From Haloferax marisrubri (GTDB taxonomy: Archaea > Halobacteriota > Halobacteria > Halobacteriales > Haloferacaceae): DNA of 64,000 nucleotides. The position numbers were made by a program, and so were the translations under genes. The DNA is taken from contig NZ_LOPW02000010.1 of NCBI RefSeq assembly GCF_001469875.2, forward strand, positions 381,942-445,941, written 5' to 3'. Within the stretch, counting starts at the first letter, position 1. Each line of letters opens with the position of its first letter. Under the pieces are notes generated by a model. That model searched no databases. It was not told where the DNA came from and saw only the letters and a list, made by a program, of their open reading frames with translations. Below are positions 1,953 through 57,023 of the stretch, one piece after another.

Positions 1953-4151
1953 ATGACACTAGAGCGATATATGGGACACAAACTCACGCAGACTACGATT
2001 GTACTGTTGCTGTGCGGCCTGCTGGCCACCGCACCGATTGCAGGCGCGACGACAGTTGCCCACGAAGTACAGCCCACGGGACAGTCGAGCCTCGAAACAA
2101 CAGAAACGACACTCGCAATAAGCGGCAACGGGACCGAGGTGAATCCGTACGTCATCACTAACGCCTCTGGGCTGACCGCGATTCGCGACGACCTCGATGC
2201 CCACTACGTCCTTGGGTCGGACATCGACGCGACCGAGACGGCGACGTGGAACAACGGCTCCGGATTCGAACCAATCGGGACGTTCTCGACGCCGTTCACG
2301 GGCACGATTGACGGTGAAAATCACACCATCGAGGGGCTGACGATCGACCGGCCGTCGACGAGTGGCGTCGCACTCGTTGGCTACGCCTCAGAAAGTTCGA
2401 TTACGGACCTCCAACTGACTGACGTCGCCATCACCGGCGACTTCACCACGGCCGCCCTCGTCGGGTCGGCAACGGACACCGTCGTCCGCGAGGTGACTGT
2501 CAGCGGGTCGATCTCGGGCAGCGGGACCGTCGCCGGCATGGTGGCGACCACCGACGGCGGGACAGTCGAACACGTCGATGCAACGGTCACAGTAGAGAGC
2601 CCCGGGAGCGCAGGCGGACTCGTTGCTGAAAACGAAGGCACCGTCAGCAATGTCGTCGTGTCCGGGCACGTCACCGGTGGGACGTACGTCGGTGGCATCG
2701 CCGCACAGAACCCCGGGACGATCGAACGCGCAGCGGTGAACGCGACCGTCGTCGGAACGACCGACGACACGAGTGTCGCGACTGGCGGCCTCGTCGGATA
2801 CAATTCGGGGAACATCACCGCGACGCACGCTCACGGCCGCGTGTCCGGCACGAACTACGTCGGCGGGCTCGTGGGGTCGAGTAACTACGAAAGCGGCGTC
2901 GTCGCCGACTCGTACGCGACGGCGAACGTGTCCGGCGAGTCAACCGTCGGCGGCCTCGTCGGCGGCCTGTACTACGGCAGTTCGGTCATCGGGTCGTACT
3001 GGAACGAACAAACCTCCGGCCAACCGACCTCTGCGGCGGCGGGCAACGGAAGCGTTGGGTTCTCGACCGCGGCGATGACGGGCGAGGCGGCCACGACGAA
3101 TCTGACTGCGTTGGACTTCGCAGAGACGTGGCAGGTTGAGTCGGGAGCCTACCCGGATCTCGTCGGGGTGCGTGGCGACGAGTATTCCGCGAGCACGGCG
3201 ACTGACGAGCCCACGCCGCTCGGACTCAACGCAACGACCGAGCTGGTCGATAGTGACCTCGTCCTCACGGTCACGGCGAACGACTCGCTCGACTCGCTCG
3301 AAGCCGTCCTCGCGAGTTCCTCGACGGTCTACCAGGAGACGATTACGCTCGATGCGTTCTCGGAGACGCAAAACGGGTCGACGTACGTTTACACGACGCG
3401 ATACGTCGACACGGCCGCCGGCGAGTACACGCTTGACGTCTCGGCGAGTGACGAGACGGGGGCGCAGACAACCCTCAATCGCAGCCTCACGGTCGGCGAC
3501 GAAACGACTGCGCCGACGGTCGACCTCGAGATTGCGGTTGTCGATGACCCGCTCGGCCCGAATAGCACGACGACAGCCGAACTCGTCGCGCGAAACGTCT
3601 CGTCGGATATCGGTGCCTACGAGGCGACGATTTCCGTTCCCGAGGCGTCGGGAGTCACGATAACGGCAGTAAACGCCACCGGGTCGCCGGCGTTCGCCAA
3701 CACCACGTACAGTCGTAACAACACGACCGCGCGGGTGAGCGTCGTCGGCCGAACACCGACCGAAAGCGAGTCGCCGACCCTCGCGACGATTACACTTGAG
3801 AGTGGGACGACCATCGACGAGGGCGACACAGTCGTCAGCGTCTCGGATGCGAACGTCTCGACCGAAGGAGGCGACGAAATCACGGTCACGTCGATGACGG
3901 GCGATACCGTTCCACTCGCCGCACTCGACCCGGTCGGCGACTTCGAATCACCGCCGACCGATCCGGATGGTGACGGCGTGTACGAAGACGTCAACGGCGA
4001 CGGCAACGTCACCGTCTCCGACGTGCAGGCGCTTTTCACCCATCGGGACAGCGAGGCGGTCACAGAGCAGAGTGAGCGCTTCGATGTCACCGGAAACGGG
4101 GTGTTCAACATCGTCGACGTCCAGCGATTGTTCTACACGACGACGACCTAA
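1953..4151 (+). CDS. Secreted GLUG-repeat protein with cohesin-like module and C-terminal dockerin
   Basis: A 732-residue exported protein. After a Sec-type signal peptide (hydrophobic core TIVLLLCGLLATAPIAGA), residues about 160-365 hold repeated GLUG-like units (GGLVGYNSG, VGGLVGSS, VGGLVGG) predicted to form a beta-helix. An Ig-like region follows, then a cohesin-like module (about 523-661; starts VDLEIAVVDDPLGPNST, contains IGAYEATISVP). The dockerin is at about 668-732, with two calcium loops, DVNGDGNVTVSDVQALF and DVTGNGVFNIVDVQRLF. Starts at TTG 1929 and ATG 1971 are also possible; 1971 would place the signal peptide closest to the N-terminus. Likely a cell-surface or adhesion protein; no catalytic motif is seen. 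Confidence 0.85.
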   Translation: MTLERYMGHKLTQTTIVLLLCGLLATAPIAGATTVAHEVQPTGQSSLETTETTLAISGNGTEVNPYVITNASGLTAIRDDLDAHYVLGSDIDATETATWNNGSGFEPIGTFSTPFTGTIDGENHTIEGLTIDRPSTSGVALVGYASESSITDLQLTDVAITGDFTTAALVGSATDTVVREVTVSGSISGSGTVAGMVATTDGGTVEHVDATVTVESPGSAGGLVAENEGTVSNVVVSGHVTGGTYVGGIAAQNPGTIERAAVNATVVGTTDDTSVATGGLVGYNSGNITATHAHGRVSGTNYVGGLVGSSNYESGVVADSYATANVSGESTVGGLVGGLYYGSSVIGSYWNEQTSGQPTSAAAGNGSVGFSTAAMTGEAATTNLTALDFAETWQVESGAYPDLVGVRGDEYSASTATDEPTPLGLNATTELVDSDLVLTVTANDSLDSLEAVLASSSTVYQETITLDAFSETQNGSTYVYTTRYVDTAAGEYTLDVSASDETGAQTTLNRSLTVGDETTAPTVDLEIAVVDDPLGPNSTTTAELVARNVSSDIGAYEATISVPEASGVTITAVNATGSPAFANTTYSRNNTTARVSVVGRTPTESESPTLATITLESGTTIDEGDTVVSVSDANVSTEGGDEITVTSMTGDTVPLAALDPVGDFESPPTDPDGDGVYEDVNGDGNVTVSDVQALFTHRDSEAVTEQSERFDVTGNGVFNIVDVQRLFYTTTT

Positions 4152-4429: not shown

Positions 4430-7400
4430 ATGAAATTCAAGCATATAGTTCTGGTGGCCCTTGTGGTCGCACTAATCACCCAGCCGGTGGCCGCGGCTGG
4501 CCCACTATACGAACCGGAACAGGACGGAGTAGAATACAGTCGCTTGACAGCCCTCACGGAATCACAACTCACAACGGCTGTTACTGATTCTGCACCGCAA
4601 TCAATCACGACAGCGGACTCAACATCTGCAACAAACCGTTCAGTTCGGTATACGCTCATCAATACGTCAACTGAGCTGATCCACCGACTCGCACCGAACG
4701 AACCGCTCGCCGACCTCGCAGTTCCAGCTGGCGAGTACCGTGTGCGACAGGTGACGCAGACGGGAACGAACACAACCGAGACGTACTTCGACATTCGGGT
4801 TGCCGAAGACGGGACAGTCACCAAACTGAGTACGGAACAGTCCGATGGGATCGTTAGCGGGGCCGTCACCGAAAGCGACCTCGGTGTTCAGGTTCTTGTT
4901 GGGCATAGCTACGACGAGCCATATCTGTCGGATGAGACGGTGAACGTCTCCGTGAGCGCAGTCAATACTAGCACGGCTGTGCCGATGCCAGTTGAGGGTC
5001 CGAATCTCACGGTGACTGTCACCGGACCGGAAAATACTGAGCTCACGCGAACGGTCCAGTCGCGTTCGACTGGTCCAGTTGCCGTCCCGATTGATCTCTC
5101 GGGCCTCCCGAACGGCACCTACGATGTCGAGGTCTCGAGCCCTGAAACATCGGATACGGCGAGTGCTGACTTCCTCGCCGGGCCGACCGTCAGAGTCTAT
5201 CCACACTTTACCGACCACATCGAAGTCGGTGAACCAACGACGATCGCCGCGTCACTCGCAGAACAGGGGCGACCACAGCCGAATACGGAACTTAATATTT
5301 CGATCCGGCGACCGAACGGCACCGAAGTGACACGGACCGTGACGACTGACTCGGACGGGTTTTCGATGATTAACTTCACCCCGACGCAGTCTGGACCATA
5401 CTGGGTTCATCCTGCGGACCGGCCGGGTGAGTCGACGTCACTCACCGCTGTCGATGTCGTCGCGGAGTTGAAGACAAACACGAGAGATTACTCGACGTGG
5501 ATGCCGGCCGGTGACGAGGTCCAACTCTCTGGGCTCGTCTACGACGATGGTGCAGCACTCGCGAACACGGACCTGACGATTCGGATTATCAACACCACGG
5601 ACCGACGTGACACACCCGTCACAAACCTGAGCGTGTCGACGAACGACGACGGGCTCTATGCGACGGCGTGGCAGACGCCGAACAAACCGACAGCACGGTA
5701 CGAGGCGCACCTCTACACGAGCGACGGCGAGCGAATCGAACACGATGGAGGGCGGATCAACCTAGAAGCAGTAGATGATGGGACGAGCGGCGGTGACGAT
5801 GCTGAGCCGACTGCCACGCTCGTCACCGAGATTGACTCACCATCGTATCGGAACGTTGTTGCCCCCGGTGGAAACGTTACTGCAACGGTCCACGCAGAGG
5901 CCAACGGGAGTGCTGTCACGGATACGACGGTCAACTACACACTCGCCTACGAGTATCGAGAACAGGTCGCAGCGACAGGCAGCGTTACAACCGACGAGTC
6001 CGGCCAAGCAACGATTGCAGTTCCGGTTCCAAGCGATGCCCCGGATAGTGCTTCGTTCGAGTTACTGACGCAGGCCACTATTGACGGGACGACGATTGAC
6101 AGTCAGGATGGTGGTGAAATCCAACGCTACCGGATTGAAGAGGACCGCTTGGGTGGCCATGCGCCCGGAGACAACATTGGCTACGAGCTGCAGTTCCTCG
6201 ACCCAGCGACCGGTGCTGGTGTTTCGGGCGTCCCAATCTCGGTCGCTGCCGAGACGTTCACCCGGATGCAGGGTGGCTCCTTCGGAACTGGAACGGACGT
6301 CTCGAATGCTGATGGAACGGCGACAGTCAACTTCACCCTCCCAGGCCACGCGACGCGTGAGTTCCTGTATGGGCCACGATATCCCTACTTCGATGGCGGC
6401 TTCCCGACAGAGAACGTTCAGGGATACGACATCTCCGTTAATGGGCTTTCCAGAGAGCTCGAAGGAGGCGACACGGTCACGCTCAATTACACCACGACGA
6501 GTCGTGATGACACATCGGCAGTCGTGATGTTTAGAACGTGGGAAGACGGCGAGTCGCCGGGTGCCAATGCCAAAGTCGTCTCTGAAGGAGAGTCGTTTAC
6601 CATGACCGCCCCTGACGTCTCAGGTGAGTCCTCGTATCGAGTCGATCTGTACGTCGTGAACGGATCTGGCGTGACTGCCACCGAGAGCGAGTATCTCGAC
6701 ATCACCCCCGGAAGTTCGTCGGCGGACGAACCACGGAACGTGACAGTCACGGGGCAACTAGCAACGGCAGCTGGCAGTCCGGCGGTCAACGCGACGGTCG
6801 GGTTCACGCCGGTGTCTGGCGGCCCCACGACGTTTGTCGCCACGAACGAAACCGGCGCGTACAACAGTTCCAACACGGCACGCGTGAGCGGTGACCCACT
6901 CACCGCGAACACAACGTATTCGGTCGCGTTCTACCAAGCGAATTTCGTCAGCGGCGAGTCGCACCCACAGACGTGGGCAAACGATGGAATCGCCGATATC
7001 TACGCCTACGGAACGGTCAACACGTCGAACACCACGACGGTCTCTGGACAGCTCCCGATTGGACACCGGCTTAACGTCACCGTGACGAACGAGAGCGACG
7101 TGCCGGTCGAGAATGCGACCGTTGTCGTTCGACACACCCGTCAAGAGCGATCCGCTGCGGCCGCAGGAACGACAACTGAAACCGGGGCGTACGAGTACAT
7201 CGTAAGCGAACAGCAGGGCATCGAACTACGCGGGAACGTCTCTGTCGCAGTCTACGACTCGACCGAATTCGAGAATCAGATGGTCACCACATACACGACG
7301 GTCACAAACGACACCGCGGTTCGTGTCACACTTCCCGAAAACGAAACCACGACTGGCGATGACAGCGACTCGGCCGACCGGAACGCGACGCTCCGCCTGG

Positions 7401-8014
7401 TGCCGTCACAGGACACCGCCCAAGTTAACGAGACGGTGACGCTCGAGTTCGTCGTTGCGAACGCGAGTGAGGGTGTGGGTGCCTTTTCGAGCACGCTCAG
7501 CCTGACGAACGATACGGCTCGGATTGCGGATGCATCCGTCGCCGGCACACCGGAGGGCGTAGAGATCAACCAGAGCGACAATAACACGTCGGTGTCGCTC
7601 GCTGCCTTCGGACTGAATCGGACTGCAGCCGATGAACTCGTGCTCGCGAGGGTTAACGTCACGCTCACGCTCGTTGGCTCGACCGACCTCGTCGTCGAAG
7701 AGGCCACACTCGGGACGCCGAGTGGCTACGACTACAACCTCACCAATGAGGCTGACGCCAAGCTCACCGCCACGACGCTGACTCCGATTGGGAATGCAAC
7801 GGCACCACCGACTGATCCGGATGGTGACGGCACCTTCGAAGACATCAACGGCGATGGCAACGTGACTGTCTCGGACGTGCAGGCGATGTTCGCGAATCGC
7901 GAGAGCGATATTTTCGACGACCACACCGAGCGGTTCGACTTCTCCGGCAACGGAGCGGTGAACATCGTCGATATCCAGAACCTCTTCGTTGAGGTGACAG
8001 AAACCTCGTCGTAG
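4430..8014 (+). CDS. Large secreted multi-Ig protein with cohesin-like module and dockerin
   Basis: A 1194-residue protein with a clear signal peptide (MKFKHIVLVALVVALITQPVAAAG). Most of it is a string of Ig-like beta-sandwiches, several resembling macroglobulin MG2 or carboxypeptidase-regulatory-like repeats. It is rich in Thr, Asn and N-glycosylation sequons. A cohesin-like module (about 984-1118, VNETVTLEFVVANASEGVGAF) precedes a dockerin (about 1127-1194) with loops DINGDGNVTVSDVQAMF and DFSGNGAVNIVDIQNLF. It follows the other dockerin protein in the same direction after 278 bp. Base composition looks less GC-rich than the 45-64 kb genes. Probably structural or adhesive; no enzyme motif is visible. 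Confidence 0.85.
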   Translation: MKFKHIVLVALVVALITQPVAAAGPLYEPEQDGVEYSRLTALTESQLTTAVTDSAPQSITTADSTSATNRSVRYTLINTSTELIHRLAPNEPLADLAVPAGEYRVRQVTQTGTNTTETYFDIRVAEDGTVTKLSTEQSDGIVSGAVTESDLGVQVLVGHSYDEPYLSDETVNVSVSAVNTSTAVPMPVEGPNLTVTVTGPENTELTRTVQSRSTGPVAVPIDLSGLPNGTYDVEVSSPETSDTASADFLAGPTVRVYPHFTDHIEVGEPTTIAASLAEQGRPQPNTELNISIRRPNGTEVTRTVTTDSDGFSMINFTPTQSGPYWVHPADRPGESTSLTAVDVVAELKTNTRDYSTWMPAGDEVQLSGLVYDDGAALANTDLTIRIINTTDRRDTPVTNLSVSTNDDGLYATAWQTPNKPTARYEAHLYTSDGERIEHDGGRINLEAVDDGTSGGDDAEPTATLVTEIDSPSYRNVVAPGGNVTATVHAEANGSAVTDTTVNYTLAYEYREQVAATGSVTTDESGQATIAVPVPSDAPDSASFELLTQATIDGTTIDSQDGGEIQRYRIEEDRLGGHAPGDNIGYELQFLDPATGAGVSGVPISVAAETFTRMQGGSFGTGTDVSNADGTATVNFTLPGHATREFLYGPRYPYFDGGFPTENVQGYDISVNGLSRELEGGDTVTLNYTTTSRDDTSAVVMFRTWEDGESPGANAKVVSEGESFTMTAPDVSGESSYRVDLYVVNGSGVTATESEYLDITPGSSSADEPRNVTVTGQLATAAGSPAVNATVGFTPVSGGPTTFVATNETGAYNSSNTARVSGDPLTANTTYSVAFYQANFVSGESHPQTWANDGIADIYAYGTVNTSNTTTVSGQLPIGHRLNVTVTNESDVPVENATVVVRHTRQERSAAAAGTTTETGAYEYIVSEQQGIELRGNVSVAVYDSTEFENQMVTTYTTVTNDTAVRVTLPENETTTGDDSDSADRNATLRLVPSQDTAQVNETVTLEFVVANASEGVGAFSSTLSLTNDTARIADASVAGTPEGVEINQSDNNTSVSLAAFGLNRTAADELVLARVNVTLTLVGSTDLVVEEATLGTPSGYDYNLTNEADAKLTATTLTPIGNATAPPTDPDGDGTFEDINGDGNVTVSDVQAMFANRESDIFDDHTERFDFSGNGAVNIVDIQNLFVEVTETSS

Positions 8015-45694: not shown

Positions 45695-48600
45695 GTGCGG
45701 ACAGATGTGCCTCCACACACATCACCACAGACAGCGCTCAGTCGTACTGTAACGGTGCTACTCGTGTTAGTACTCACGACCGCGACGTTTCCCGCCGGTG
45801 CGGCGGGCGTCGCGGCGGCGGAGGACGCGAGCGCACTCGATTCGAGCGTCCAGTCGGCGATGAACGCGTCCGCGCCGGCGGCCGTGACCATCACCGAACT
45901 CCAGTCGAACACGTCCGACGGCGACGCGTCGGCCTACGCGGGGCAGTTCGTCAGCGTCACCGGGACGGTGACCGCGACGAACGCCGACGGCTTCTTCCTG
46001 CAGAACGCCTCCGCGGCCGACGTGCGGCACAGCGCCGTCTACGTCTACGCGGGCGGGTCGTCGAACGCGACCCCCGGCGACGAGGTGCGCGTCGACGCGC
46101 CCGTCACCGAGTACTACGGCCTGACCCAACTCGACCTGACGAACGACAGCGCCTCGCTGTCGACGACCGGAAGCGGGTCGGTCCCCGAGGCGACCGTCCT
46201 CGCGACGGAAAATGTCTCCCAAGAGGCCTACGAGAGCGTGCTCGTCAGCGTGCGCGACGTGGAAGTCACGGCGACGCCCGGCCAGTACGGCGAGTGGGCC
46301 GTCACCGACGGCTCCGGGCCGGTCGCTATCGACGACGTGACGACGGGCGACGACACCACGCCCTCGGAGGTCGGCAGCACCGCCGACGCCATCGAGGGAC
46401 CGGTGTTCTACAGCTTCGAGGAGTACAAGATTCAGCCCGCGTCGGTGACGAACCTGACCGCCCCCGCGGGCGGTGACGCCGGCAACGACACCGCGGGCGC
46501 GAATGCGACGACAATCACGCTCGTCGGCTTCAACGACATCGGCAAGGCGGCCGCCGGCTCCGGCGACGACAAACTCGGTCGGATGATCACGCTCATCAAC
46601 CGCGAGCGCGCCAACGCCTCCGGCCCCGTCTTCGTGGCCGGCGGCGGCGACGAACTCAGTCCGCACGCCCTCCGCAACTACGACGGGCTGGAGCACGGCT
46701 ACGAGCCGCCGGTGACGGCGATGAACCTCATCGACCCCGACGCCGAGGTCGTCCAGAACCACGAACTCGACTACGACGAGGACGCGGGGACGAACGACTT
46801 CGCCGTCTTCGAGGCCATCGCCAACGAGTCGACCTACCCGTGGCTCCTCGCCAACGTCGTCCACGAGGAGACCGGCGAGAACCTCCCCGGGACGCAGAAC
46901 TACACCGTCGTCGAGCGCGGCGGTGTCAGAGTCGGCTTCTTCGGCCTGACCGACGAGGCCATCAACGCAAAGACCGACGGCGTCATCGAGCGCAACGGCT
47001 ACACCGTCGTCGACCCGACGACCGCCGCCCAGCGGACCGTCGACACGCTCCGCACCGAGGAGGACGTGGACGTGGTCGTCGCGCTGGCTCCGGTCGGCAT
47101 TCCGGACTCGAAGGACCTCGCCCGAAACGTCGATGGCATCGACGCGCTCGTCTCCGGCGACGACCAACAGCGCTACCCGCCGCAGACCACCAACGGCGTC
47201 CTCATCGGCGAGACCACCGGCAAGGCAAACGCCATCATGCGGATGGAACTGACCGTCGATAACGGGAGCGTCACCGACGCCTCCGGCGAACTCGTCGACG
47301 TGACGACCGACGTGCCGCGCAACGACTCGTGGCAGATGTACATCAACCCGCTCCGCGAGGGCTATCTCAACACGGAACTCGCGACGGCGGTCATGCCCGA
47401 GCACACGGGCGTCGGCTCCAGCTACACCGACGACTCCGCGACGGGCCACCTCGTCACCGACGGCGTCCGTGGCTACACCGGTGCCGACGTGGCCGTGACG
47501 AACGCCGGCGGCATCCGCGACACGCTCTACCCGAGCGAGTACGGTCCGGGCGAGGAGTTCAACATCACCCGCGGGATGGTGACCTCGACGCTCTCGTTCG
47601 GCAACCACATCGTCGTGGTCGAGGTGACCGGCGCGGAACTCCGCGAGGTCGTCAAGAGCCAAATCACGCCGCTGGAGATGGACAACCAGTACGGCACCCA
47701 GACCCAACAGCAGGTCAGCGGCGTCACCTTCGAGTGGGTGCCCCACACCGATAGCTCGTCGCCCGGCGAGGGCGACGCGACGATTCGCGACCTCACGGTG
47801 AACGGCGAACCCGTCAACGACTCGGCGACCTACACGCTGGCGACGAACTCCTACATCGCCGACGGCGGTAGTGGCTACCCGCTCGCCGACAAGCCGCGCG
47901 TGACTGTCCTGAACGAGACGACGATGGCCGACGGCGTCATCGGCTACCTGCAGAACCGCTCGACCATCGCGGCCGCCGAAGTCGACACCGAGTCCGACGA
48001 CCGGATGCGCCGGGTCGACACGGCGGTTGACGCCGACGCGGTCGACGTGACGAGCGACGACGGCCAGACGACGGTCACTATCGACGCACCCTCGCGCGTG
48101 ACCGGCGTGAGTGGGACCGCCGCCTTCGCCGACCGCAACGGCGGCTACGTCGAGACGACGAACGTCGCCTACGACGACGCGAGCGGCACCATCACGGTCA
48201 CGGTGCCGACGAGCGACCTCGACGCCTTCGAATCGTCGGTGACCGCGCCGGACTCGGGCGTCGACCTCTACGTCGACTACACCGACAGCGCGTATTCGAG
48301 CCAGTACGAGAACTTCGATTCGGCCGTGCTGAACGCCGACCTCGACAGCGAGGCGACCACGCCCGACCCGACACCTGAACCGGCAGACGGCGTCGCGCTC
48401 GCGGTCGGCTCGGACGCCCAATCCGTCCCCCTCGGCGACACGCAGACGTTCGATATCACCGCGAGTGACGCCGAAAGCGGCGTCGGCGCGTACGAACTGA
48501 CGCTCACGGTCGGCGATTCGAGCGTGGCCCGCATCACGGCCGTGCAGTTCCCCGATGAACCCGGCTTCTCGGCGGTCAACGTCAGCGACGACGGCAGTAC

Positions 48601-49021
48601 GGTCCACGTCGAGGCCGCTGGCATCGACGCCGCCGACGACGCGAACGACTCGCAGGTTCTGGCGACCGTGACGGTCGAGGGCGTCGCGCTCGGCGGTTCG
48701 ACGGCGCTCGAACTGACCCCGACGGCGACCTACGACCCCAACGGAACGGCCTACGCGGTGTCGCGCATCGACAACCGCCCGGTCGGCGTCGAACCCGGTG
48801 ACCTTACTGGCAACGGCCGCGCGATGGCCGACCACGACGGCGACGGCACCTTCGAGGACGTGAACGGCGACGGCAGCGTGGACGTCGTGGACGCCCAGGC
48901 GCTGTTTGTGAACCGCAACGCCGAGCCGGTCCAGTCGAGCACCCCCGCGTTCGACCTCAACGACGATGGTCGCGTCGACGTGGGCGACGTGCAGCGGCTG
49001 TTCGCCTCGACGAATGCGTAA
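45695..49021 (+). CDS. Secreted 5'-nucleotidase-fold protein with cohesin-like module and dockerin
   Basis: Started at GTG 45695 (MRTDVPPHTSPQTALSRTV), giving 1108 residues; the longer frame precedes the TATA box. Order: signal peptide; an OB-fold nucleic-acid-binding-like domain (about 45-185); a 5'-nucleotidase (UshA/NucA) fold with both halves (about 270-780); a cohesin-like module (about 898-1034); a dockerin (about 1045-1108; loops DVNGDGSVDVVDAQALF and DLNDDGRVDVGDVQRLF). Metal-ligand motifs are altered: GFNDIGK replaces the usual DxH, and SGDDQQR replaces GGHSH, so phosphatase activity is doubtful. The stop overlaps the start of a PGF-anchored cohesin gene. Confidence 0.88.
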   Translation: MRTDVPPHTSPQTALSRTVTVLLVLVLTTATFPAGAAGVAAAEDASALDSSVQSAMNASAPAAVTITELQSNTSDGDASAYAGQFVSVTGTVTATNADGFFLQNASAADVRHSAVYVYAGGSSNATPGDEVRVDAPVTEYYGLTQLDLTNDSASLSTTGSGSVPEATVLATENVSQEAYESVLVSVRDVEVTATPGQYGEWAVTDGSGPVAIDDVTTGDDTTPSEVGSTADAIEGPVFYSFEEYKIQPASVTNLTAPAGGDAGNDTAGANATTITLVGFNDIGKAAAGSGDDKLGRMITLINRERANASGPVFVAGGGDELSPHALRNYDGLEHGYEPPVTAMNLIDPDAEVVQNHELDYDEDAGTNDFAVFEAIANESTYPWLLANVVHEETGENLPGTQNYTVVERGGVRVGFFGLTDEAINAKTDGVIERNGYTVVDPTTAAQRTVDTLRTEEDVDVVVALAPVGIPDSKDLARNVDGIDALVSGDDQQRYPPQTTNGVLIGETTGKANAIMRMELTVDNGSVTDASGELVDVTTDVPRNDSWQMYINPLREGYLNTELATAVMPEHTGVGSSYTDDSATGHLVTDGVRGYTGADVAVTNAGGIRDTLYPSEYGPGEEFNITRGMVTSTLSFGNHIVVVEVTGAELREVVKSQITPLEMDNQYGTQTQQQVSGVTFEWVPHTDSSSPGEGDATIRDLTVNGEPVNDSATYTLATNSYIADGGSGYPLADKPRVTVLNETTMADGVIGYLQNRSTIAAAEVDTESDDRMRRVDTAVDADAVDVTSDDGQTTVTIDAPSRVTGVSGTAAFADRNGGYVETTNVAYDDASGTITVTVPTSDLDAFESSVTAPDSGVDLYVDYTDSAYSSQYENFDSAVLNADLDSEATTPDPTPEPADGVALAVGSDAQSVPLGDTQTFDITASDAESGVGAYELTLTVGDSSVARITAVQFPDEPGFSAVNVSDDGSTVHVEAAGIDAADDANDSQVLATVTVEGVALGGSTALELTPTATYDPNGTAYAVSRIDNRPVGVEPGDLTGNGRAMADHDGDGTFEDVNGDGSVDVVDAQALFVNRNAEPVQSSTPAFDLNDDGRVDVGDVQRLFASTNA

Positions 49022-49922
49022 GCCCAACCCGAACTGGACCGGCCGGAGCGCGCTTGCGGTGTTCGCGGCGCTCGTCTGTCTGAGCGCCGTCGCGCCGCCC
49101 GCGCTCGCCGCGACCGACACGACCGTCGGCTTCGACACCGACGCGGCGACCGTCGAACCCGACTCGACGCGGACGTTCGACATCGTCGTCGACAGCGCCG
49201 ACGCTGGCGTCGGTGCGTACAACCTGACGGTCGAACTCGACGACGCATCTGTCGGTCGCATCGCCGAGGTCGCCACCCCCGACGGCACCGACCCGCGACT
49301 GCGGGACGTGTCGTACGACACCGAGCGCACGGTCGCCTCGGTTCGCGTCGTCGGCCTCGACACCGACGACACCGGCTCGGTCGCCGTCGCGACCGTCACC
49401 GTCGAAACTGCGGATGCCACCGGTGACGGCGCGCTCGACGTGTCCGTGTCCGCCCTCGGCGATGAGGACGGCAACGCCTACACCGTCACCGACACGTCGG
49501 GACTGGACCTCTCCGTCTCGCAGTCGGCTGGTGGCGGGGGCACCGGCGGTGGTGGCGGTGGCGGTGACTCCGCCGCCGACACCGGTGACTCGACTGCCGA
49601 TGGCGACGACACCGACGGCGATTCGGACTCAGGGCGAGACGGCGATTCCGGCACGGACGACGAGTCGGCCGACGTGACCGACCAGCCCGCGACCACCGAG
49701 CCGCCGGCGGAGTCGCCAACCCCCGCCGCGTCACCCGCGAGTCCGACGACAGCCGACGACGGTGCGACGACCGCCAGCGCGACAGACACGCAGTCCGCGA
49801 CCGAGACGACCGAGCGCCGGACGACGGCAACCGGCGTCCCCGGCTTCGGCGTCGCTCCCGCGGTCGCCGCCATCACAGCGCTCCTGTTCGGGTTCGGACG
49901 CCGGGCGCGGTGCGAGAACTGA
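49014..49922 (+). CDS. PGF-anchored cohesin-like surface protein
   Basis: Started at ATG 49014, overlapping the dockerin gene's stop by 8 bases (ATGCGTAA). A 302-residue protein: a signal peptide (about 1-37), one cohesin-like module (about 38-170; VEPDSTRTFDIVVDSADAGV, GAYNLTVEL), a Gly- then Asp-rich linker, a Thr/Pro-rich stalk and a PGF-type C-terminus (VPGFGVAPAVAAITALLFGF, then RR). Archaeosortase ArtA recognises such ends and attaches the protein to lipid. It has no dockerin, so it is a candidate anchor for dockerin-bearing proteins. The coupling to the preceding gene supports this. Confidence 0.88.
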   Translation: MRKPNPNWTGRSALAVFAALVCLSAVAPPALAATDTTVGFDTDAATVEPDSTRTFDIVVDSADAGVGAYNLTVELDDASVGRIAEVATPDGTDPRLRDVSYDTERTVASVRVVGLDTDDTGSVAVATVTVETADATGDGALDVSVSALGDEDGNAYTVTDTSGLDLSVSQSAGGGGTGGGGGGGDSAADTGDSTADGDDTDGDSDSGRDGDSGTDDESADVTDQPATTEPPAESPTPAASPASPTTADDGATTASATDTQSATETTERRTTATGVPGFGVAPAVAAITALLFGFGRRARCEN

Positions 49923-49986
49923 GCGAACACGGGCCCACGGGGGTCTGTGTCGAATCTTTATCCGTGTGGGCGTCTAGCAGGGAGGT

Positions 49987-50592
49987 ATGAACGGCCCGGA
50001 CACCGCGGACGAAACGAGCTTCTATTTCGACTACGAGCTACAGGTCGATGCGACCCGTGACGCCGTAGCGAAGCTCGCTCGTGAGGTCCTCCAGTACGAG
50101 TGGGCCGACTACCTCCGTGCGTCCCCGCCGGAGGGTCCCCACACGTGGCACGCCCTCGACTCGGGGAAGCCGTGGGGCCGCGTCACGCCCGCGGCGTGGG
50201 AGCGCGGCCGCGACCGCGGCTACGACCTCCACTTCGAGCACTACCCGACGCCGCGCGCCCTCCAGCGTGGACAGTTCCGCCTCGAACTCCACCTCGAAGA
50301 CGGTATCCACGGCGACGCCGACTTCTCGGGCGACTCGCCGTACGCGGCGCTCCGCGAGCGACTCGTCGCGGCGCTCGACGAGGTGCGCGACGAACACGAC
50401 GACCTCCCGGCCGGCGAGTTCGGCACCGGGCGGACGCTCTGGCGGGTCGACTCCCACTTCCTCGCGGGCGACACCGTCGCCTACTACGAGGCGCTCCGCG
50501 AGGCGCTGTCGGCGCACGACGCGTTCGTCGACGCCGTGGCGGCCGTCCTCGACGACGAACTCCCCGAGCGCGACCCGTTCGAGCGCGACTGA
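49987..50592 (+). CDS. Conserved hypothetical protein
   Basis: A 201-residue soluble protein (MNGPDTADETSFYFDYELQV). It has aromatic- and charge-rich stretches (EWADYLRASPPEGPHTWHAL, GYDLHFEHYPTPRALQRGQF) and an acidic C-terminus. No family is recognised. A TATA-like AATCTTTATC lies at 49953-49962, and a GGAGG sequence sits directly before the ATG. It lies inside the surface-protein region but has no signal peptide. Confidence 0.7.
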   Translation: MNGPDTADETSFYFDYELQVDATRDAVAKLAREVLQYEWADYLRASPPEGPHTWHALDSGKPWGRVTPAAWERGRDRGYDLHFEHYPTPRALQRGQFRLELHLEDGIHGDADFSGDSPYAALRERLVAALDEVRDEHDDLPAGEFGTGRTLWRVDSHFLAGDTVAYYEALREALSAHDAFVDAVAAVLDDELPERDPFERD

Positions 50593-50859
50593 CGCGCCGA
50601 GGCGAACCGCCGACTCGCCGCCCGCGTCGAATCACGTGAGGACCGACCGAGAGTGGTGACGCTCCCGAGAGGAGCGCGTCCGACGCCCCGACTGCTGTCT
50701 GTGCTCAACTACGCCCCCGTCAGAGTGGCTCCTATCGGTGTGAAGGCGACTGCAACAGAAAGTGTACAATCAACTCGACAATACCACTATATAGCTACAT
50801 TTGGACGCCAATCCCCGATAACTGCGAAAGAATTATACCGTATACCGCCCGTTAGTGAA

Positions 50860-51063
50860 ATGATGACGCAAACACTCGAGGTCGCCCCGCACGTAATCAC
50901 GGAGGGGTCGACCATCCGGCATTCGACGCTGTGTACGGAACAGACGGTGGTGGAAATCGAAGACGAGACTATTCGGACGATGTACGACGACGAGGAGTTC
51001 GTCTACCCGCGCGAACAGCTCGCAGTCGACCTCTCGGTCGGTCGGTTCGAAGTCGTTTCCTGA
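50860..51063 (+). CDS. Small conserved hypothetical protein
   Basis: Started at ATG 50860 (or 50863), giving 66-67 residues; the TATA box at 50830-50839 fits and excludes the longer frame. The sequence MTQTLEVAPHVITEGSTIRH and the centre EQTVVEIEDETIRTMYDDEE suggest a small beta-rich domain. No family is recognised. Confidence 0.65.
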   Translation: MMTQTLEVAPHVITEGSTIRHSTLCTEQTVVEIEDETIRTMYDDEEFVYPREQLAVDLSVGRFEVVS

Positions 51064-51279
51064 CCCCGCTTTCGGGACGGCACGGGCCACCGTCTCGGCT
51101 TCCGTCGTCGCTCACGGTTACCGCGAATCCATCCGGCCCGCCTCGGTCCCCGTTTTCCCCGCTCTCGACTGACTCGTTCGTCACCGGACGCCCGCGAGCG
51201 ACCGCGCCGAAGCGCGTCTCGAAAATCTGTACAGTTCGATTGCCGATACTATTTTTACGACCCACATGAATCTCCGGCC

Positions 51280-52125
51280 GTGTCCTCCGCAGACCCTCCG
51301 CGCTCGCCGGGAACGCTCGCCGTGAGCGCCAAAGAGACCGGTCAATCGCTGTACGAACGGGCGTACAACACGCTGTTGACGGGCGTGGCGATTATGATCC
51401 CCATCGTCATCACGCTGTACGTCCTGCGCGTCGGCATCGACTTCGTCAGAAACGCCCTCGAACCGTTCATCGACCTGCTTCGCTGGGCGGGCGTCATCAG
51501 CCGCTTCGAGAGCGTCGAATTCATCACGCTCCTCATCGACCTCGGTATCTACTCGTTCGTCGTCGATTTCTTCACCGAACTGGTCGCGCTCCTCGTCCTC
51601 TTCGCCATCGTCGCGGTCGTGGGGACCGTCGGCCGCAACCAGTACGGCGAGAAAATCATCGGCGTGTTCGACCTCGTGGTCTCGTCGATTCCGGGCGTCG
51701 GCACGGTGTACAAGAGCTTCCGCCGCATGGGCGACGTGGTCCTCGACGAGGGGGCCGACGAGTTCCAGGACGTGAAACTCGTCCAGTGTTTCGACGACGA
51801 CGTGTACGTACTGGGCTTCCAGACGGGCGGCTCCCCCGCGACCATCGAACAGTCGACCGGCCACAACGAAATGGTCTCGATGTTCCTCCCGCTCGCGCCC
51901 AACCCGGTCACCGGCGGCCTGCTCACCTACATCCCCGCCGACGACGTGTACGACATCGACATGACCGTCGAGGAGGGCGTCCGGAGCATCCTCACGAGCG
52001 GCGTCGCCACCGACGAGGACTCGGGCGCGCTCGGCGTGAACATGTCCGAACTCCGCGGGACCGAGCGGTTACAGGACATCCGCGAGTCGATGATTACGCG
52101 AGAGCGGAAGGAAAAACAGGACTGA
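51280..52125 (+). CDS. DUF502-family membrane protein
   Basis: Started at GTG 51280 (MSSADPPRSPGTLAVSAKET), with a TATA-like TACTATTTTTA at 51247-51257. A 281-residue protein with two long hydrophobic segments (about 31-50 and 88-110) and the DUF502 signatures SIPGVGTVYKSFRRMGDVV and FLPLAPNPVTGGLLTYIPAD. DUF502 proteins are widespread membrane proteins of uncertain role. It is followed by a terminator-like hairpin. Confidence 0.88.
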   Translation: MSSADPPRSPGTLAVSAKETGQSLYERAYNTLLTGVAIMIPIVITLYVLRVGIDFVRNALEPFIDLLRWAGVISRFESVEFITLLIDLGIYSFVVDFFTELVALLVLFAIVAVVGTVGRNQYGEKIIGVFDLVVSSIPGVGTVYKSFRRMGDVVLDEGADEFQDVKLVQCFDDDVYVLGFQTGGSPATIEQSTGHNEMVSMFLPLAPNPVTGGLLTYIPADDVYDIDMTVEEGVRSILTSGVATDEDSGALGVNMSELRGTERLQDIRESMITRERKEKQD

Positions 52126-52141
52126 GTCGTCTCTCGCACGA

Positions 52142-52176
52142 CCGCTGGCGAGACTGGCCAGCGGAACAAGCTTTTT
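52142..52176 (+). terminator. Hairpin plus T-run after DUF502 gene
   Basis: An 8-bp stem, CCGCTGGC pairing with GCCAGCGG around GAGACTG, is followed by AACAAGCTTTTT. It resembles an intrinsic terminator and starts 16 bases after the stop codon. Confidence 0.6.
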
Positions 52177-52182
52177 ACTCGA

Positions 52183-52202
52183 TGTCTGTCGTGTGACAGA
52201 CA
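52183..52202. repeat. Perfect palindrome TGTCTGTC-GTGT-GACAGACA
   Basis: A perfect 8-bp inverted repeat lies just after the terminator-like hairpin and about 100 bases before the beta-helix/dockerin gene. It could be an operator for that gene. Confidence 0.45.
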
Positions 52203-52299
52203 CGTCCGCATTCCACACGCTGTGCGAGGGGCAGAACAGCGACGGTAGTAGTGCAGGGGCTGTCGAGCACGCGCTCTGTGGGCACGGACAGGTCTAACT

Positions 52300-55203
52300 A
52301 TGGCACGGAACACAACGCGTTCTGTTGGGTGGGTAGCGCTGAGCATCTTCGTCTGTGGATTACTCGTGACTGCACCAGTTGGTGCGGTCAGCGTGGGCAC
52401 GTCCACGACGGACGGGGGAACGACCCCCGCACAACTGAGTAACACGACGGTAACCGTCGACGAGTCCGGAGGGGCGGACTACCTGCGGATTCAAGCGGCG
52501 ATAGACAACGTCTCTGCCGGGTCGACGGTCGAAGTCCGACCGGGGACGTATCGCGAAGCGGTGACGGTCGACAAGAGTCTCACGCTTACCGCGCCGGACG
52601 GCGCGGTGCTGAACGGGTCGACGCTCGACTCCGAGGCGAGCGCGGTAACCATCGTCGGAGACGCCGAGCCGCTGATTTCGGGCTTTACTATCACTCGCTA
52701 CGGTACCACGGGCATCGACGCACAGGGGACGACCGGTGCGTGGGAGGCCACCGACCTCGAAATCGCCGAGACTGACGGCTTCATGGGGACCGGCGTCAAC
52801 GCCGAAGGTTCGAGTGGGAACTGGGTCGTCTCTGACACGCTCGTCCGAGACAGCTACCGAAACGGGGTCAACGCCCGACAGTCGAACGGTTCGTGGCTGC
52901 TCGAAAACGTCACCGTGACTGACACCGTGTTCGGCAACGGCATCCGCGCCGACGAATCGACGGGTGACTGGGTGATGCGGAACGCGACCGTTTCTGACAC
53001 GCGGGACGACACCACCGGTATCGCGGTGTTCGAGACCGTCGGCGACTGGACGATTACTGAAACGACGGTCGTCAACAACTCCCGCGACGGAATCGAAGCG
53101 ACGAACACGGTCGGTTCGTGGCGGATTACGAACAGCACCGTCGCCGAAAACGGGCAGTTCGGCGTCAATGTCGGCGGTCCCGCGACGGCGACCACGACCG
53201 GTGCGAACTGGTCGATTATCGGGGCGACCATCGAGTCGAACGGCGATGCGGGCATCAACGCCGAGGAAGTGACCGGGCCGTGGCGGGTTCACGAGACCCG
53301 ATTGGTCGATAACGGAGTCGGTGTCGACGCGACCGGAGCGGCCGAGCGCGGCGCTGTTGAGCGGAACTGGTGGGGAGCGACGGACGGCCCGTCGGGCGTG
53401 GCAAACGGTTCCGGTGACGCCGCGACCGGGAACCTCTCGGTCACGCCGTACTACACCGATTCGGCACTGACGGCGCTCTCGACTGCCTCGGCTGGCGATG
53501 GCGTCGACGTGTCTACGTCGGCGACGATGATCTCGCCGGACGAACCGGGGGCGCTTCGGACGGAACTCACCAATACCGGTGACACCGCCGTCTCGACCGC
53601 CGTCGTCTTCGACGACCTCGCGGGCGTGACCGTCCGAGAGGCGGACGCCAGCGCCGGCACCTGGGACAACGACACCGACGAGTGGGAGATTGGAGCCCTG
53701 CAAGCGGGCGCGAGCGCTTCCTTGACGCTCGACGTGAGTGCAGACACCTCCGGAACGTCGCTCCCGTCCGAGCGGAACGTCTCGGCGACGATGACCACCG
53801 GTGAGACGACCCAGTCGCTCAGCTACCCGGTCACCGTGGCGGCGGCCGATGACCTCTCAATGACCGTCGGAACCGTGACCGCGGAGACAGGTGAGACGGT
53901 CGTAATTCCCATCGAGACGGAACCGGTCCGCGGCGGCGTCTATTACGCCGGAACCGTCTCGTTCGACGCGTCGGTTGTGCACGTCGCGAACGTCTCGATG
54001 GACGACGAAGACGCGTTCGTCTGGTCGGAGGCCGACAACCAGAACGGAACCGTCGAGTTCGGCATCGAGAGCGCCGACTACCTCACAGACCCGGTTGTGA
54101 ACGTGACGTTCGACGTCGTCGGAGATAGTGGGACGGCGACTGCAGTAAACGTCAGCGACCGGACGGTCTACACGACCGGCGCGGATTACGTCGGCTTCCC
54201 CGTGACCAACGGGTCGGTCAGCGTCGCGTCCGGAGAGGGTGACACGGGCGACACGGCCCCGCCCGAACTCGATAGCGAGGCTGTACAGCAAGACGACGAC
54301 ATCGCCGTGACCGTCTCCTCGAACGAGTCGCTCGCGTCGCTCACGGGAGTGCTCTCCGACAGCGATAGCGTGTACCGCGAGCAGATCACGCTGAGTGCGT
54401 TCGACGAATCGGTCCTGAACGGGACGTACGTGTACGAGACCGTGTACGGCGGGGCCGGCGACGGCGAGTACGAGTTCACCGCGACCGCGACCGACACCGC
54501 CGGTAACGAGGTGACGGAGACGGAGACGTTCCTCATCGGCACCCAGTCGAGTAACGACTCGACGATACGGCTCTCCGTCGAAACGCCGACCGAGGCCGTC
54601 GGCGTAAACGACACCGCGCCCGTCGAACTCGTCGCCGGCGACGTCGACTCCTTCGTCGGCGCGTACGAGGCGACCGTGTCGGTCCCCGCCGAGTCGGGCG
54701 TCCGTTTCACGTCGGCGAACGTTACCGGCTCGCCCGCGTTCTCGGACGCGGAGTACAGCGAGAACAACACGACAGTCCGACTGAGCGCCGTGGGGATGGA
54801 GACTGCAGACGGACCGTCGCCGGACCTCGCCGAACTTACGGTGGCTGTGGACCGGGTCAGCGGAGAGCGCGAGGAACAGATACCGGTCACGGTCTCGAAC
54901 GCGAACGTCTCCGACGAGAACGGAACTGAACTGTCCGTTGAGTCCACGGAGAACGGCACGCTGGACGTCGTGACGCTGTCGGCAATCGGGCCGAGCGAAC
55001 TGCCCCCGACGGACCCGGACGGTGACGGCCACTACGAGGACGTCAACGGCGACGGGAACGTGACCGTCTCGGACGTACAAGCACTCTTCACCAGCCGAGA
55101 CGACGCGAGCGTCCGCGAACAGGCCTCGCTGTTCGACTTCAACGACAACGGACGGTTCAACATCGTCGACATCCAGCGCCTGTTCTACACCGAACTGGTC
55201 TGA
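52300..55203 (+). CDS. Secreted beta-helix protein with two cohesin-like modules and a dockerin
   Basis: A 967-residue protein. After a signal peptide (VGWVALSIFVCGLLVTAPVG), a right-handed beta-helix region of the pectate-lyase/NosD type covers about 55-370 (YLRIQAAIDNVSAGSTVEV, then repeated NGVNA, NGIRA, DGIEA turns). A Big-like domain follows. Cohesin-like module one is about 516-644 and two about 753-894 (VNDTAPVELVAGDVDSFVGA). The dockerin (about 904-967) has loops DVNGDGNVTVSDVQALF and DFNDNGRFNIVDIQRLF. With two cohesins plus a dockerin it could bridge partners. No lyase active site can be confirmed. Confidence 0.88.
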   Translation: MARNTTRSVGWVALSIFVCGLLVTAPVGAVSVGTSTTDGGTTPAQLSNTTVTVDESGGADYLRIQAAIDNVSAGSTVEVRPGTYREAVTVDKSLTLTAPDGAVLNGSTLDSEASAVTIVGDAEPLISGFTITRYGTTGIDAQGTTGAWEATDLEIAETDGFMGTGVNAEGSSGNWVVSDTLVRDSYRNGVNARQSNGSWLLENVTVTDTVFGNGIRADESTGDWVMRNATVSDTRDDTTGIAVFETVGDWTITETTVVNNSRDGIEATNTVGSWRITNSTVAENGQFGVNVGGPATATTTGANWSIIGATIESNGDAGINAEEVTGPWRVHETRLVDNGVGVDATGAAERGAVERNWWGATDGPSGVANGSGDAATGNLSVTPYYTDSALTALSTASAGDGVDVSTSATMISPDEPGALRTELTNTGDTAVSTAVVFDDLAGVTVREADASAGTWDNDTDEWEIGALQAGASASLTLDVSADTSGTSLPSERNVSATMTTGETTQSLSYPVTVAAADDLSMTVGTVTAETGETVVIPIETEPVRGGVYYAGTVSFDASVVHVANVSMDDEDAFVWSEADNQNGTVEFGIESADYLTDPVVNVTFDVVGDSGTATAVNVSDRTVYTTGADYVGFPVTNGSVSVASGEGDTGDTAPPELDSEAVQQDDDIAVTVSSNESLASLTGVLSDSDSVYREQITLSAFDESVLNGTYVYETVYGGAGDGEYEFTATATDTAGNEVTETETFLIGTQSSNDSTIRLSVETPTEAVGVNDTAPVELVAGDVDSFVGAYEATVSVPAESGVRFTSANVTGSPAFSDAEYSENNTTVRLSAVGMETADGPSPDLAELTVAVDRVSGEREEQIPVTVSNANVSDENGTELSVESTENGTLDVVTLSAIGPSELPPTDPDGDGHYEDVNGDGNVTVSDVQALFTSRDDASVREQASLFDFNDNGRFNIVDIQRLFYTELV

Positions 55204-55346
55204 CTTCGCTCGCTGGCTGACCGCTTGTTTTCGGTCCGACTGTTCTCATCAACGCCTCGGGCCCCTCGAAGCCGTATCTCGCCCTCGAATCTGTCAATGT
55301 ATCTAATCTTTATATGTCTGCTCCACGAAGTGTGGTATGATCACGC

Positions 55347-55724
55347 ATGGGGCCGCCACCGCGAGTTCTCGTCTACGGACCACCGCCAGAGCGGGCCTGG
55401 CACCCGCAGAGCGACGTCGAAATCCGATACGTGACCGAGACTGAAGCGCTTCGCCGGCTCGCGTCGTCGAAAGATCCGACGGTCGTCGTCTGTCTTCACG
55501 CACCGCCGTCTTACCGAGGTGGGGTCGCCGCGCGCGTCACTCGTCGCGTCGACGGTTCCCAGCCGGTCGTCGTCACCGGTTGGGAGACCGCCCGCTCACC
55601 CAGCCTCGAACCGGTCGATTCGGACCTCGTGAAAACCGTCGGTCTCCCGGACGACGAACCGCTCCCGGAGGCGCTGTTCGACGTCGTCGACAAAGTCGGT
55701 GCGCGTCTGGCGGCCCACGCGTGA
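55347..55724 (+). CDS. Small alpha/beta hypothetical protein
   Basis: A 125-residue protein (MGPPPRVLVYGPPPERAWHP). Alternating strands and helices such as VEIRYVTETEALRRLASS and DPTVVVCLHAPPS faintly recall a receiver-like fold without the phosphoacceptor. A TATA-like CTTTATATG at about 55308-55316 supports the ATG at 55347. No family is assigned. Confidence 0.65.
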   Translation: MGPPPRVLVYGPPPERAWHPQSDVEIRYVTETEALRRLASSKDPTVVVCLHAPPSYRGGVAARVTRRVDGSQPVVVTGWETARSPSLEPVDSDLVKTVGLPDDEPLPEALFDVVDKVGARLAAHA

Positions 55725-56042
55725 CGTGACCTCGCTCGGCCCTGCGACGACCGCCACCTGTCAGAAGTGGCAACCCTCCGACTGACCGTAACAATTAGCA
55801 TGCTCGATTCTTCTTGTCATATCGTGAACGTCGGAGTAATCACGTGCCTGCACGGCGATTCACGGCAGTACGACGCGTGAGGGGCTGCTGCCGACCGCCG
55901 TCCGACGCGGCTTCGCGCAATCCACGTCGTGCGTGGCTCGTGATGGTTCGACGGACAACCCGACACTAACTATGAGCTCTTCGAACACGCCCGGTTCAAT
56001 GCGAGTCGTCTGGACAGCGTCCAACCGTTTGGGGGATGCGAG
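55725..56042. other. Intergenic region with a possible short leader ORF
   Basis: No full gene is seen. A 24-codon frame (55972-56046; MSSSNTPGSMRVVWTASNRL) ends in an ATGA overlap with the next gene's start, so it may be a coupled leader peptide. GGGGGATG just before the start resembles a ribosome-binding site. Confidence 0.35.
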
Positions 56043-57023
56043 ATGAAACTGAAAGCGCGGCACGGTTTCCTGCTGCTTCTGGCGCTCGCGCTCGCCGTCG
56101 CGCCCGGGGTGAGCGCCGCGGCCGGGTCGACGGCCGTCGCGCTCGAACCGACGAACCAGACGGTCGAGAACGGCGAGACGGCGACGTTCGACGTGGTCGT
56201 GACGAACGCCTCCGGCGGCGTCGGCGCGGCGAACATCTCGTTCTCGGTCGCCAACGAGACGGCGACCATCACGCAGGTCGCGTTCAGTCACGAGACGGCC
56301 GAGGTCACCACGACGTACGCGAGTGACAACAGCTCTGCGACGCTCACCGGCTACGGACTCGACACGAACCAGACCGGCTCGGTGGTCGTCGCCACCGTCA
56401 CGGTCGAAGGGAACGCGACGAGTACGGCCGAAACCATGGTCACGCCGCACGTCAATGCGCTCGGTGACGAGGACGGCAACGACTACACGGTGAGCGAGGA
56501 GCAGTCCGCACAGCTTGAGGTGACGACTTCCTCGTCGGGCGGTGGCGGCTCCGACGGCGGGGACGACAGCGACGGTGATGGTGGCTCCGGTGACGGCGGC
56601 GACGGTGACACAGAATCGGCGACCGTCACCAACCTCTCGGTCGGCACGACCGATGTCGAGACCGGCGAGAACGTCGAAGTCACGGCGACCGTCCTGAACG
56701 ACGGCGACGTGACGACGAACGCGACGGTCAACCTCACGGTCGACGGGGCGGTCCGAACGACGAAGACCGTCTCCGACCTCGACCCCGGCAACGAATCGAC
56801 CGTCGTGTTCCTCCTGGCGTTCCAGCAGGCGGGGACGTACAACCTCTCCGTCGGCGGCGAGTGGGCGACGGTCACGGTCGCCGAGCCGGACACGACCACC
56901 TCCGACCCGGTGACGACCTCAACGCCGACGGAGACGGAGAGCCAAGCGCCCGGCTTCGGCGTGCTGACGGCGCTCCTCTCGCTGGTCGCGCTCGTCGGTG
57001 CGGCGCGTCTGCGGGCCGAGTAA
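56043..57023 (+). CDS. PGF-anchored surface protein with cohesin-like and CARDB-like domains
   Basis: A 326-residue protein: a signal peptide (1-27), a cohesin-like module (about 28-158; TVENGETATFDVVVTNASGG), an acidic Gly/Asp linker, a CARDB-like domain (about 195-285; NVEVTATVLNDGDVTTNATV), a Thr-rich stalk and a PGF-CTERM end (QAPGFGVLTALLSLVALVGA). It resembles the anchored cohesin protein at 49.0-49.9 kb but carries one extra domain. It lacks a dockerin and is a second candidate anchor. The FtsX-like transporter genes follow it. Confidence 0.88.
   Translation: MKLKARHGFLLLLALALAVAPGVSAAAGSTAVALEPTNQTVENGETATFDVVVTNASGGVGAANISFSVANETATITQVAFSHETAEVTTTYASDNSSATLTGYGLDTNQTGSVVVATVTVEGNATSTAETMVTPHVNALGDEDGNDYTVSEEQSAQLEVTTSSSGGGGSDGGDDSDGDGGSGDGGDGDTESATVTNLSVGTTDVETGENVEVTATVLNDGDVTTNATVNLTVDGAVRTTKTVSDLDPGNESTVVFLLAFQQAGTYNLSVGGEWATVTVAEPDTTTSDPVTTSTPTETESQAPGFGVLTALLSLVALVGAARLRAE

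Follow-up and report, generated by a model that had tools for sequence, protein, structure and literature searches.

How are secreted proteins that carry no membrane anchor of their own kept at the surface of a haloarchaeal cell? The question is raised by a window of 64,000 nucleotides, the whole stretch of DNA analyzed here, which covers C10:381942-445941 of the 3.9-Mb genome of Haloferax marisrubri (C denotes a contig of this genome; L followed by a number denotes a collected locus with its own coordinates). Four proteins encoded in the window, 1953, 4430, 45695, and 52300, end in a type I dockerin that is directly preceded by a cohesin-like module, roughly 140 residues long and marked by GVGAYE or a similar motif. 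Two others, 49014 and 56043, have this kind of module behind a signal peptide, followed by a low-complexity linker and a tail composed of a PGF motif, a hydrophobic stretch, and arginines. With a probability of roughly 75%, we interpret these proteins as parts of an archaeal cohesin-dockerin display system built of cargo/anchor gene pairs, whose two partners would bind each other.

In this model, the secreted cargo protein would end in a dockerin in place of a membrane anchor, and the next gene would encode a small cohesin kept in the membrane by a C-terminal hydrophobic segment. In Haloferax, this segment would be a PGF-CTERM-like tail that is cut and lipidated by archaeosortase A (ArtA), which the genome encodes (TIGR04125, 340 bits, contig C1). 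Outside the cell, the dockerin would dock noncovalently, and probably with calcium, on the anchored cohesin of its neighbor, and one kind of joint would hold nucleotidase, beta-helix, macroglobulin-like, and protease cargo at the surface. Sequence motifs suggest secretion, ArtA processing, and calcium dependence, and we infer both that dockerin and cohesin bind and that the neighboring cohesin is the dockerin's partner.

Cohesin and dockerin modules in the window

In a six-frame search, Dockerin_1 (PF00404) exceeded the Pfam cut-off in all four proteins. With hmmscan it did so in three of them, listed as open reading frames (ORFs) 1929/1953, 45479/45695, and 52300, while the dockerin of 4430 fell short with hmmscan (21.4 bits; cut-off, 22.9) and reached 25.1 bits when all six frames were searched. 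The first calcium loop reads D-x-N-G-D-G, and the second, D-x-[NST]-x-[ND]-G, is weaker and partly degenerate. An AlphaFold model of the 45695 tail places dockerin helices at residues 171 to 180 and 203 to 213, one behind each of the paired EF-hand-like calcium loops, and a profile sequence search matched this part to the CelS and EndoSS dockerins in the PDB. Loop 1 of all four window dockerins follows the pattern D[PH]DGDGxxED[VI]NGDG, in which an extra TSP3-like DxDGDG loop overlaps the canonical one; this overlapping loop is kept in nearly all haloarchaeal dockerin copies.

The preliminary description of this locus had stated that its cohesin calls rested on short motifs. For the Pfam family this caution holds, since Cohesin (PF00963) exceeded its cut-off once in the genome, in the inner module of 52300 (E = 4.8e-5, 25.1 bits, six-frame search), a match that hmmscan of the 52300 protein did not list. 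Profiles and AlphaFold models nevertheless support the modules better than had been claimed. By direct comparison, the remaining modules belong to the same family as the inner cohesin of 52300. A profile built from nine modules found 10 places in its own genome, all on one contig, and its five PDB matches with an E value of 1 or less were all cohesins, among them 2vn5/1g1k (E = 0.002 to 0.004), the best being a Clostridium cellulolyticum cohesin at E = 0.0023. The two best PDB matches of a second profile, built from 16 anchored modules, were Ruminococcus flavefaciens cohesins (E = 0.003 to 0.006). A Pfam Cohesin match on 56043 at 56631-56921 (E = 0.09) was rejected, as this region is a CARDB domain and the real cohesin is N-terminal.

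Structure prediction gave confident models for the cohesin module of 49014 (predicted local distance difference test [pLDDT] of 92.0, predicted template modeling score [pTM] of 0.85) and for the cohesin-dockerin tail of 45695 (pLDDT of 93.4, pTM of 0.84). Cohesins were the top PDB structural matches of both, with Z scores for 6kgc of 14.7 (49014) and 15.2 (45695 tail) and for the Archaeoglobus fulgidus cohesin 2XDH of 13.9 and 14.7, respectively. Both models have the nine-stranded jelly roll of cohesins, with the leading cohesin matches at Z scores of 13 to 15. Judged by modeled fold and sequence kinship, the modules of the window are members of the cohesin family, and both module inventories of the preliminary description, dockerin plus at least one cohesin in four secreted proteins and cohesin plus PGF-type anchor in two, were recovered.

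A two-gene cargo/anchor unit

The six proteins and their modules all lie on the plus strand. One pair consists of 45695 (45695..49021) and 49014 (49014..49922), which share 8 bases where the first gene stops and the second starts. The cargo is a predicted secreted UshA/YfkN-type 5'-nucleotidase (5_nucleotid_C, E = 6e-31, with NCBIfam nucleotidase matches). It starts with a GTG at 45695 and a signal-peptide-like stretch and closes with an in-chain (cis) cohesin at 48386..48811, modeled together with the dockerin at 48824..49015; Pfam, our profile, the PDB profile match, and the model agree on the latter. The anchor comprises a signal peptide, the modeled cohesin at 49113..49526, the low-complexity linker, and a PGF-CTERM-like sorting tail at 49824..49904 (VPGFG, hydrophobic stretch, and Arg). 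The N-terminal part of 45695 resembles the first domain of the ExeM/NucH extracellular nucleases (NF033681, E = 5e-15, under the cut-off) and precedes the nucleotidase, and the cargo of homologous units is often a phosphatase or nuclease, which hints at phosphate or DNA scavenging.

The second anchored cohesin, 56043 (56043..57023; Pfam, profile, NCBIfam), has its cohesin at 56127..56534 (profile), a Gly/Asp/Ser linker, a CARDB domain beside it (Pfam), and a PGF-CTERM tail at 56934..57014. Upstream of it lies 52300 (52300..55203), a predicted secreted right-handed beta-helix protein (Beta_helix, E = 4e-12; profile) with two cohesins: one further inside the chain (53842..54237; PF00963 and profile) and one in cis before the dockerin (54556..54990, profile; dockerin at 55006..55194, Pfam and profile). 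A 125-residue ORF at 55347-55724, without a Pfam match, is conserved upstream of 56043 in several Haloferax genomes. The other two cargo candidates lie near the start of the window. Protein 1953 (1953..4151; Pfam, profile), also predicted to be secreted, has a GLUG/M26-N-like beta-rich part, a cis cohesin at 3513..3938 (profile E = 2e-45, the module itself being in the profile), and a dockerin at 3954..4145 (PF00404, 31.1 bits). Protein 4430 (4430..8014; Pfam, profile) is a predicted secreted multidomain MG2 (macroglobulin-like) protein with a cis cohesin at 7379..7792 (profile) and a dockerin at 7808..7999 (Pfam, profile).

The system exceeds the window. Pfam found seven dockerins in the genome, all of them in the 282- to 460-kb part of contig C10, and these seven together with at least four anchored cohesins fall within about 180 kb. 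Outside the window are a second MG2 protein with a cohesin-dockerin end (L012); a subtilase, or subtilisin-like protease, with a C-terminal dockerin and no cohesin (L013:14263-16545, minus strand; C10, about 459.3 to 461.5 kb); the fourth anchored cohesin, divergent to the subtilase gene and with PGPS in place of PGFG in its tail (L013:16719-17591); and a canonical archaeal dockerin protein (L013:5703-7034, minus strand) adjoining its own PGF-anchored cohesin (L013:4446-5702, minus strand). Each of these four anchored cohesins has a dockerin gene as its neighbor; only at 56043 does a small ORF separate the two. The cohesin of the canonical pair is more divergent in sequence and possibly forms an orthogonal pair within the same genome. 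A search of the plasmid collection returned no match.

The same division of labor was found across all collected loci. A C-terminal membrane segment is absent from all 86 dockerin ORFs with a complete C terminus, 83 of which have their dockerin within 7 residues of the protein end; such a segment is present in 35 of 38 cohesin-only ORFs. Cohesin-only ORFs adjoin a dockerin ORF in 44 of 54 cases, most of them following it on the same strand with frames that overlap or abut, although this count is biased in that some loci were fetched with the cohesin-dockerin cassette. When loci were fetched by the cohesin profile alone, a dockerin lay within the 1.5-kb flanks in 26 of 30, some of these having been found via the cis cohesin itself. 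At least 72 of 129 cohesin matches have a Pfam dockerin match within 5 kb, a lower bound because weaker dockerins, such as that of 52300, are outside the Pfam matches listed. Among 292 Halobacteria genomes, 86 carry both modules, 29 only the dockerin, 39 only the cohesin, and 138 neither (odds ratio of 10.5, P = 3e-19, uncorrected for relatedness).

The tandem unit, with either PGF or plain transmembrane tails, also occurs outside this class within the same phylum (L141-L144, L147, L148), and its upstream cargo varies. Haloferax has a 5'-nucleotidase in this place, Haloarcula and Halorubrum halophilum have a PhoX-type phosphatase, Haloarchaeobius has an SNase and DUF4350-like protein, and Halorubrum and Halobellus have PKD repeats. 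A constant joint with changing cargo is what would be expected of a docking system. Two loci have an alternative pair layout (L061:1959-3390 and L065:2067-3396), in which a dockerin in the N-terminal part is followed by TSP3-like calcium repeats and the gene is divergent to a cohesin with a transmembrane anchor. As read from gene order and module content, the organizing principle is a two-gene cargo/anchor unit, which is narrower than an assembled complex.

Besides the sampling bias in the adjacency count, several observations weigh against this interpretation. The second dockerin loop lacks some acidic ligands, and most cohesin modules score under the Pfam Cohesin cut-off. The tails of 49014 (17.5 bits) and 56043 (23.0 bits; 18.3 bits by hmmscan) score under the TIGR04126 cut-off of 24.5, which the paralogue L013:4446 exceeds with 40.2 bits. 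The dockerin genes 1953, 4430, and that of L012 have no adjoining anchored cohesin. A mirror-tree comparison of dockerins and adjacent anchored cohesins gave a favorable partial correlation with 28 units, but the signal vanished in the thinned set of 17 units, and leaving out the Haloarcula type reversed it; the comparison is not robust and was not used.

The in-chain cohesin and competing explanations

If the cargo docks on an anchored cohesin, a role has to be found for the cohesin within its own chain. Cis and anchored cohesins form mostly separate lineages, with 7 changes between these two labels on the tree, and with all three labels 15 changes against a shuffled mean of 45. Within the fold, the most class-specific position is cassette position 41 in strand 3, where 34 of 37 anchored modules have N, D, or Q and cis modules mostly have E, S, T, D, or R. 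Once the modules had been thinned at 70% identity, N or Q stood at this position in 17 of 26 anchored modules and in 1 of 28 cis modules (P = 1e-6; about 130 columns had been viewed before this one was chosen). In the profile-PDB alignment, position 41 matches the Asn of VGTCNFYLGY in the C. cellulolyticum cohesin, and in cohesin alignments it corresponds to Asp39 of the Clostridium thermocellum cohesin. Asp39 of the C. thermocellum cohesin is among the contacts of the dockerin Ser/Thr motif (PMC5772552). The change at this position suggests that the cis module either has another partner or may have lost binding.

One explanation is that the cis cohesin has no other partner and serves as a rigid stalk for the dockerin of its chain, much as the X module does next to type II dockerins, or as an intramolecular cap. 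The 45695 tail was modeled as a single confident unit through the linker (pLDDT of about 93 in blocks 141 to 160, pTM of 0.84), and a linker residue, L or V at position 142, is kept only in cis modules. These two features point to a rigid cohesin-dockerin unit, and the altered contact position fits a module relieved of docking. The cis cohesin nevertheless retains a complete cohesin fold, GVGAY strand included, and the subtilase demonstrates that a dockerin can do without it; we rate the explanation as somewhat short of an even chance.

Alternatively, the in-chain cohesin of one protein may bind the dockerin of another, giving a polymer or scaffold rooted on an anchored cohesin, which corresponds to the assembled surface complex of the preliminary description. 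All four dockerin proteins of the window carry a cohesin, and 52300 has two; elsewhere, Haloarcula pellucida (L097, consecutively) and Haladaptatus (L106) have proteins in which two or three cohesins accompany the dockerin. For anaerobic methanotrophic archaea (ANME), as many as five cohesins have been described in a protein that also has a dockerin (PMC9012536). Such a chain is harder to reconcile with the separation of cis from anchored lineages, the near restriction of N/Q at the contact-equivalent position to anchored modules, and, again, the subtilase without a cis cohesin, and we regard it as possible though not probable. Most likely, the cis cohesin either binds a different partner or is a rigid stalk that avoids self-docking.

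It is improbable that the modules do not dock at all and are cohesin-like immunoglobulin sandwiches acting as adhesin repeats or spacers, with the dockerin-like tail as a calcium-stabilized cap. The weak Pfam Cohesin scores and the many Ig-like, PKD, and CARDB domains around the modules would suit such a function. The strict division between dockerin ends and cohesin anchors, their tandem adjacency, and their co-occurrence in genomes would be unexpected for spacers, however, and cohesins come first among the structural matches. Binding between archaeal cohesins and dockerins has also been reported (PMC9012536, citing Bayer 1999 and Haimovitz 2008).

The preliminary description had further linked the set to a neighboring transporter. 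An FtsX gene lies at 57214-60186, next to 56043, and the order of 56043, the 125-residue ORF, and FtsX is shared by the window, Haloferax sp. Q22, H. prahovense, and H. gibbonsii. The region has two permeases of the FtsX type, about 36% alike (57214-60186 and 62574 to L013:2524), with a PMT-like membrane protein and an FtsE/LolD-like ATPase between them, and the whole group lies between two genes for anchored cohesins. In H. prahovense and H. gibbonsii, where the 56043 homologue stands beside FtsX, the 52300 gene is absent from between DUF502 and the 125-residue ORF, and the beta-helix dockerin protein is thus a variable cargo. A single machine of surface proteins and transporter, for example an FtsEX-type activator, is very improbable despite this synteny and the resemblance of the ATPase to FtsE/LolD, as no FtsX-like protein was found beside the units of other genera and the 52300 gene is missing beside FtsX in two species. 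With the FtsX neighbor found only in Haloferax loci, at most two cohesins per window protein, and the pair as the conserved element, an assembled complex with FtsX is unsupported as a general feature.

Relation to known systems and possible meaning

The other expectations of the preliminary description held up better. An archaeal, noncellulosomal surface system with anchored cohesins is supported, ArtA being present, and no cellulase, glycoside hydrolase, or carbohydrate-binding module (CBM) was found among the Pfam matches over cut-off of the six proteins. A cellulosome was rejected for this reason and for the lack of a multicohesin scaffoldin among the same matches.

Among archaea, Archaeoglobus and ANME are known to have cohesins and dockerins (PMC9012536, PMC5244752). 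The noncellulosomal modules of A. fulgidus have the same folds (Z = 13.9 to 14.7 for 2XDH) and are likewise archaeal and outside cellulose degradation; here, in addition, several cargo proteins are combined with several single cohesins carrying PGF or transmembrane anchors. The ANME proteins, from Halobacterota (PMC9012536), are also archaeal surface proteins, some with S-layer domains (PMC9012536, PMC5244752), but they differ in that a scaffold can contain as many as five cohesins and that ATP-binding cassette (ABC) substrate-binding proteins bear dockerins, whereas single anchored cohesins are paired here with an upstream dockerin gene. In clostridial OlpA, OlpC, and SdbA, a surface-held cohesin receives a dockerin-bearing secreted protein, as we propose for Haloferax, and the clostridial anchoring cohesins 3ul4, 4dh2, and 2bm3 are among the structural matches. 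Those anchors use S-layer homology domains, in contrast to the predicted archaeosortase-type or transmembrane tails found here without scaffoldin, CBM, or cellulase.

Type I dockerins also occur on secreted haloarchaeal enzymes, the mannanases of Natronoglomus (PMC10963439) and a glycosaminoglycan lyase (PMC13260240), where they were read as substrate-binding; the adjacent anchored cohesins described here suggest surface docking instead. Enzyme anchoring by archaeal cohesins has been proposed for Methanococcus (PMC11452385), and the function of noncellulosomal cohesins and dockerins is called unknown or unclear in the literature (PMC5244752, PMC11452385). In the open-access papers searched, we found no description of the cargo/anchor gene pair, of the haloarchaeal link to PGF-CTERM, or of the difference between cis and anchored cohesins, part of which the catalogue of Peer et al. 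(2009) may hold.

A broader reading, which we offer tentatively and at clearly less than even odds, extends to the whole phylum that comprises haloarchaea and methanogens. There, the translationally coupled pair of any secreted cohesin-dockerin cargo followed by a membrane-anchored cohesin may be an old, general-purpose means of noncovalent surface display, with the cis cohesin altered at the dockerin-contact strand so that the cargo would dock on the anchor and not on itself.

Haloferax is a genus with established genetics, and its model species is H. volcanii. H. volcanii, one of the control genomes, gave no dockerin match in the Pfam dockerin searches, which would make it a clean host in which to rebuild the system. 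From the gene pairs, both a partner and a place can be predicted for each dockerin. What emerges looks like a widespread, putative archaeal way of holding many different proteins at the surface with modules known from bacterial cellulosomes. If this is true, the dockerin tails of haloarchaeal enzymes would be devices for surface attachment rather than for substrate binding.

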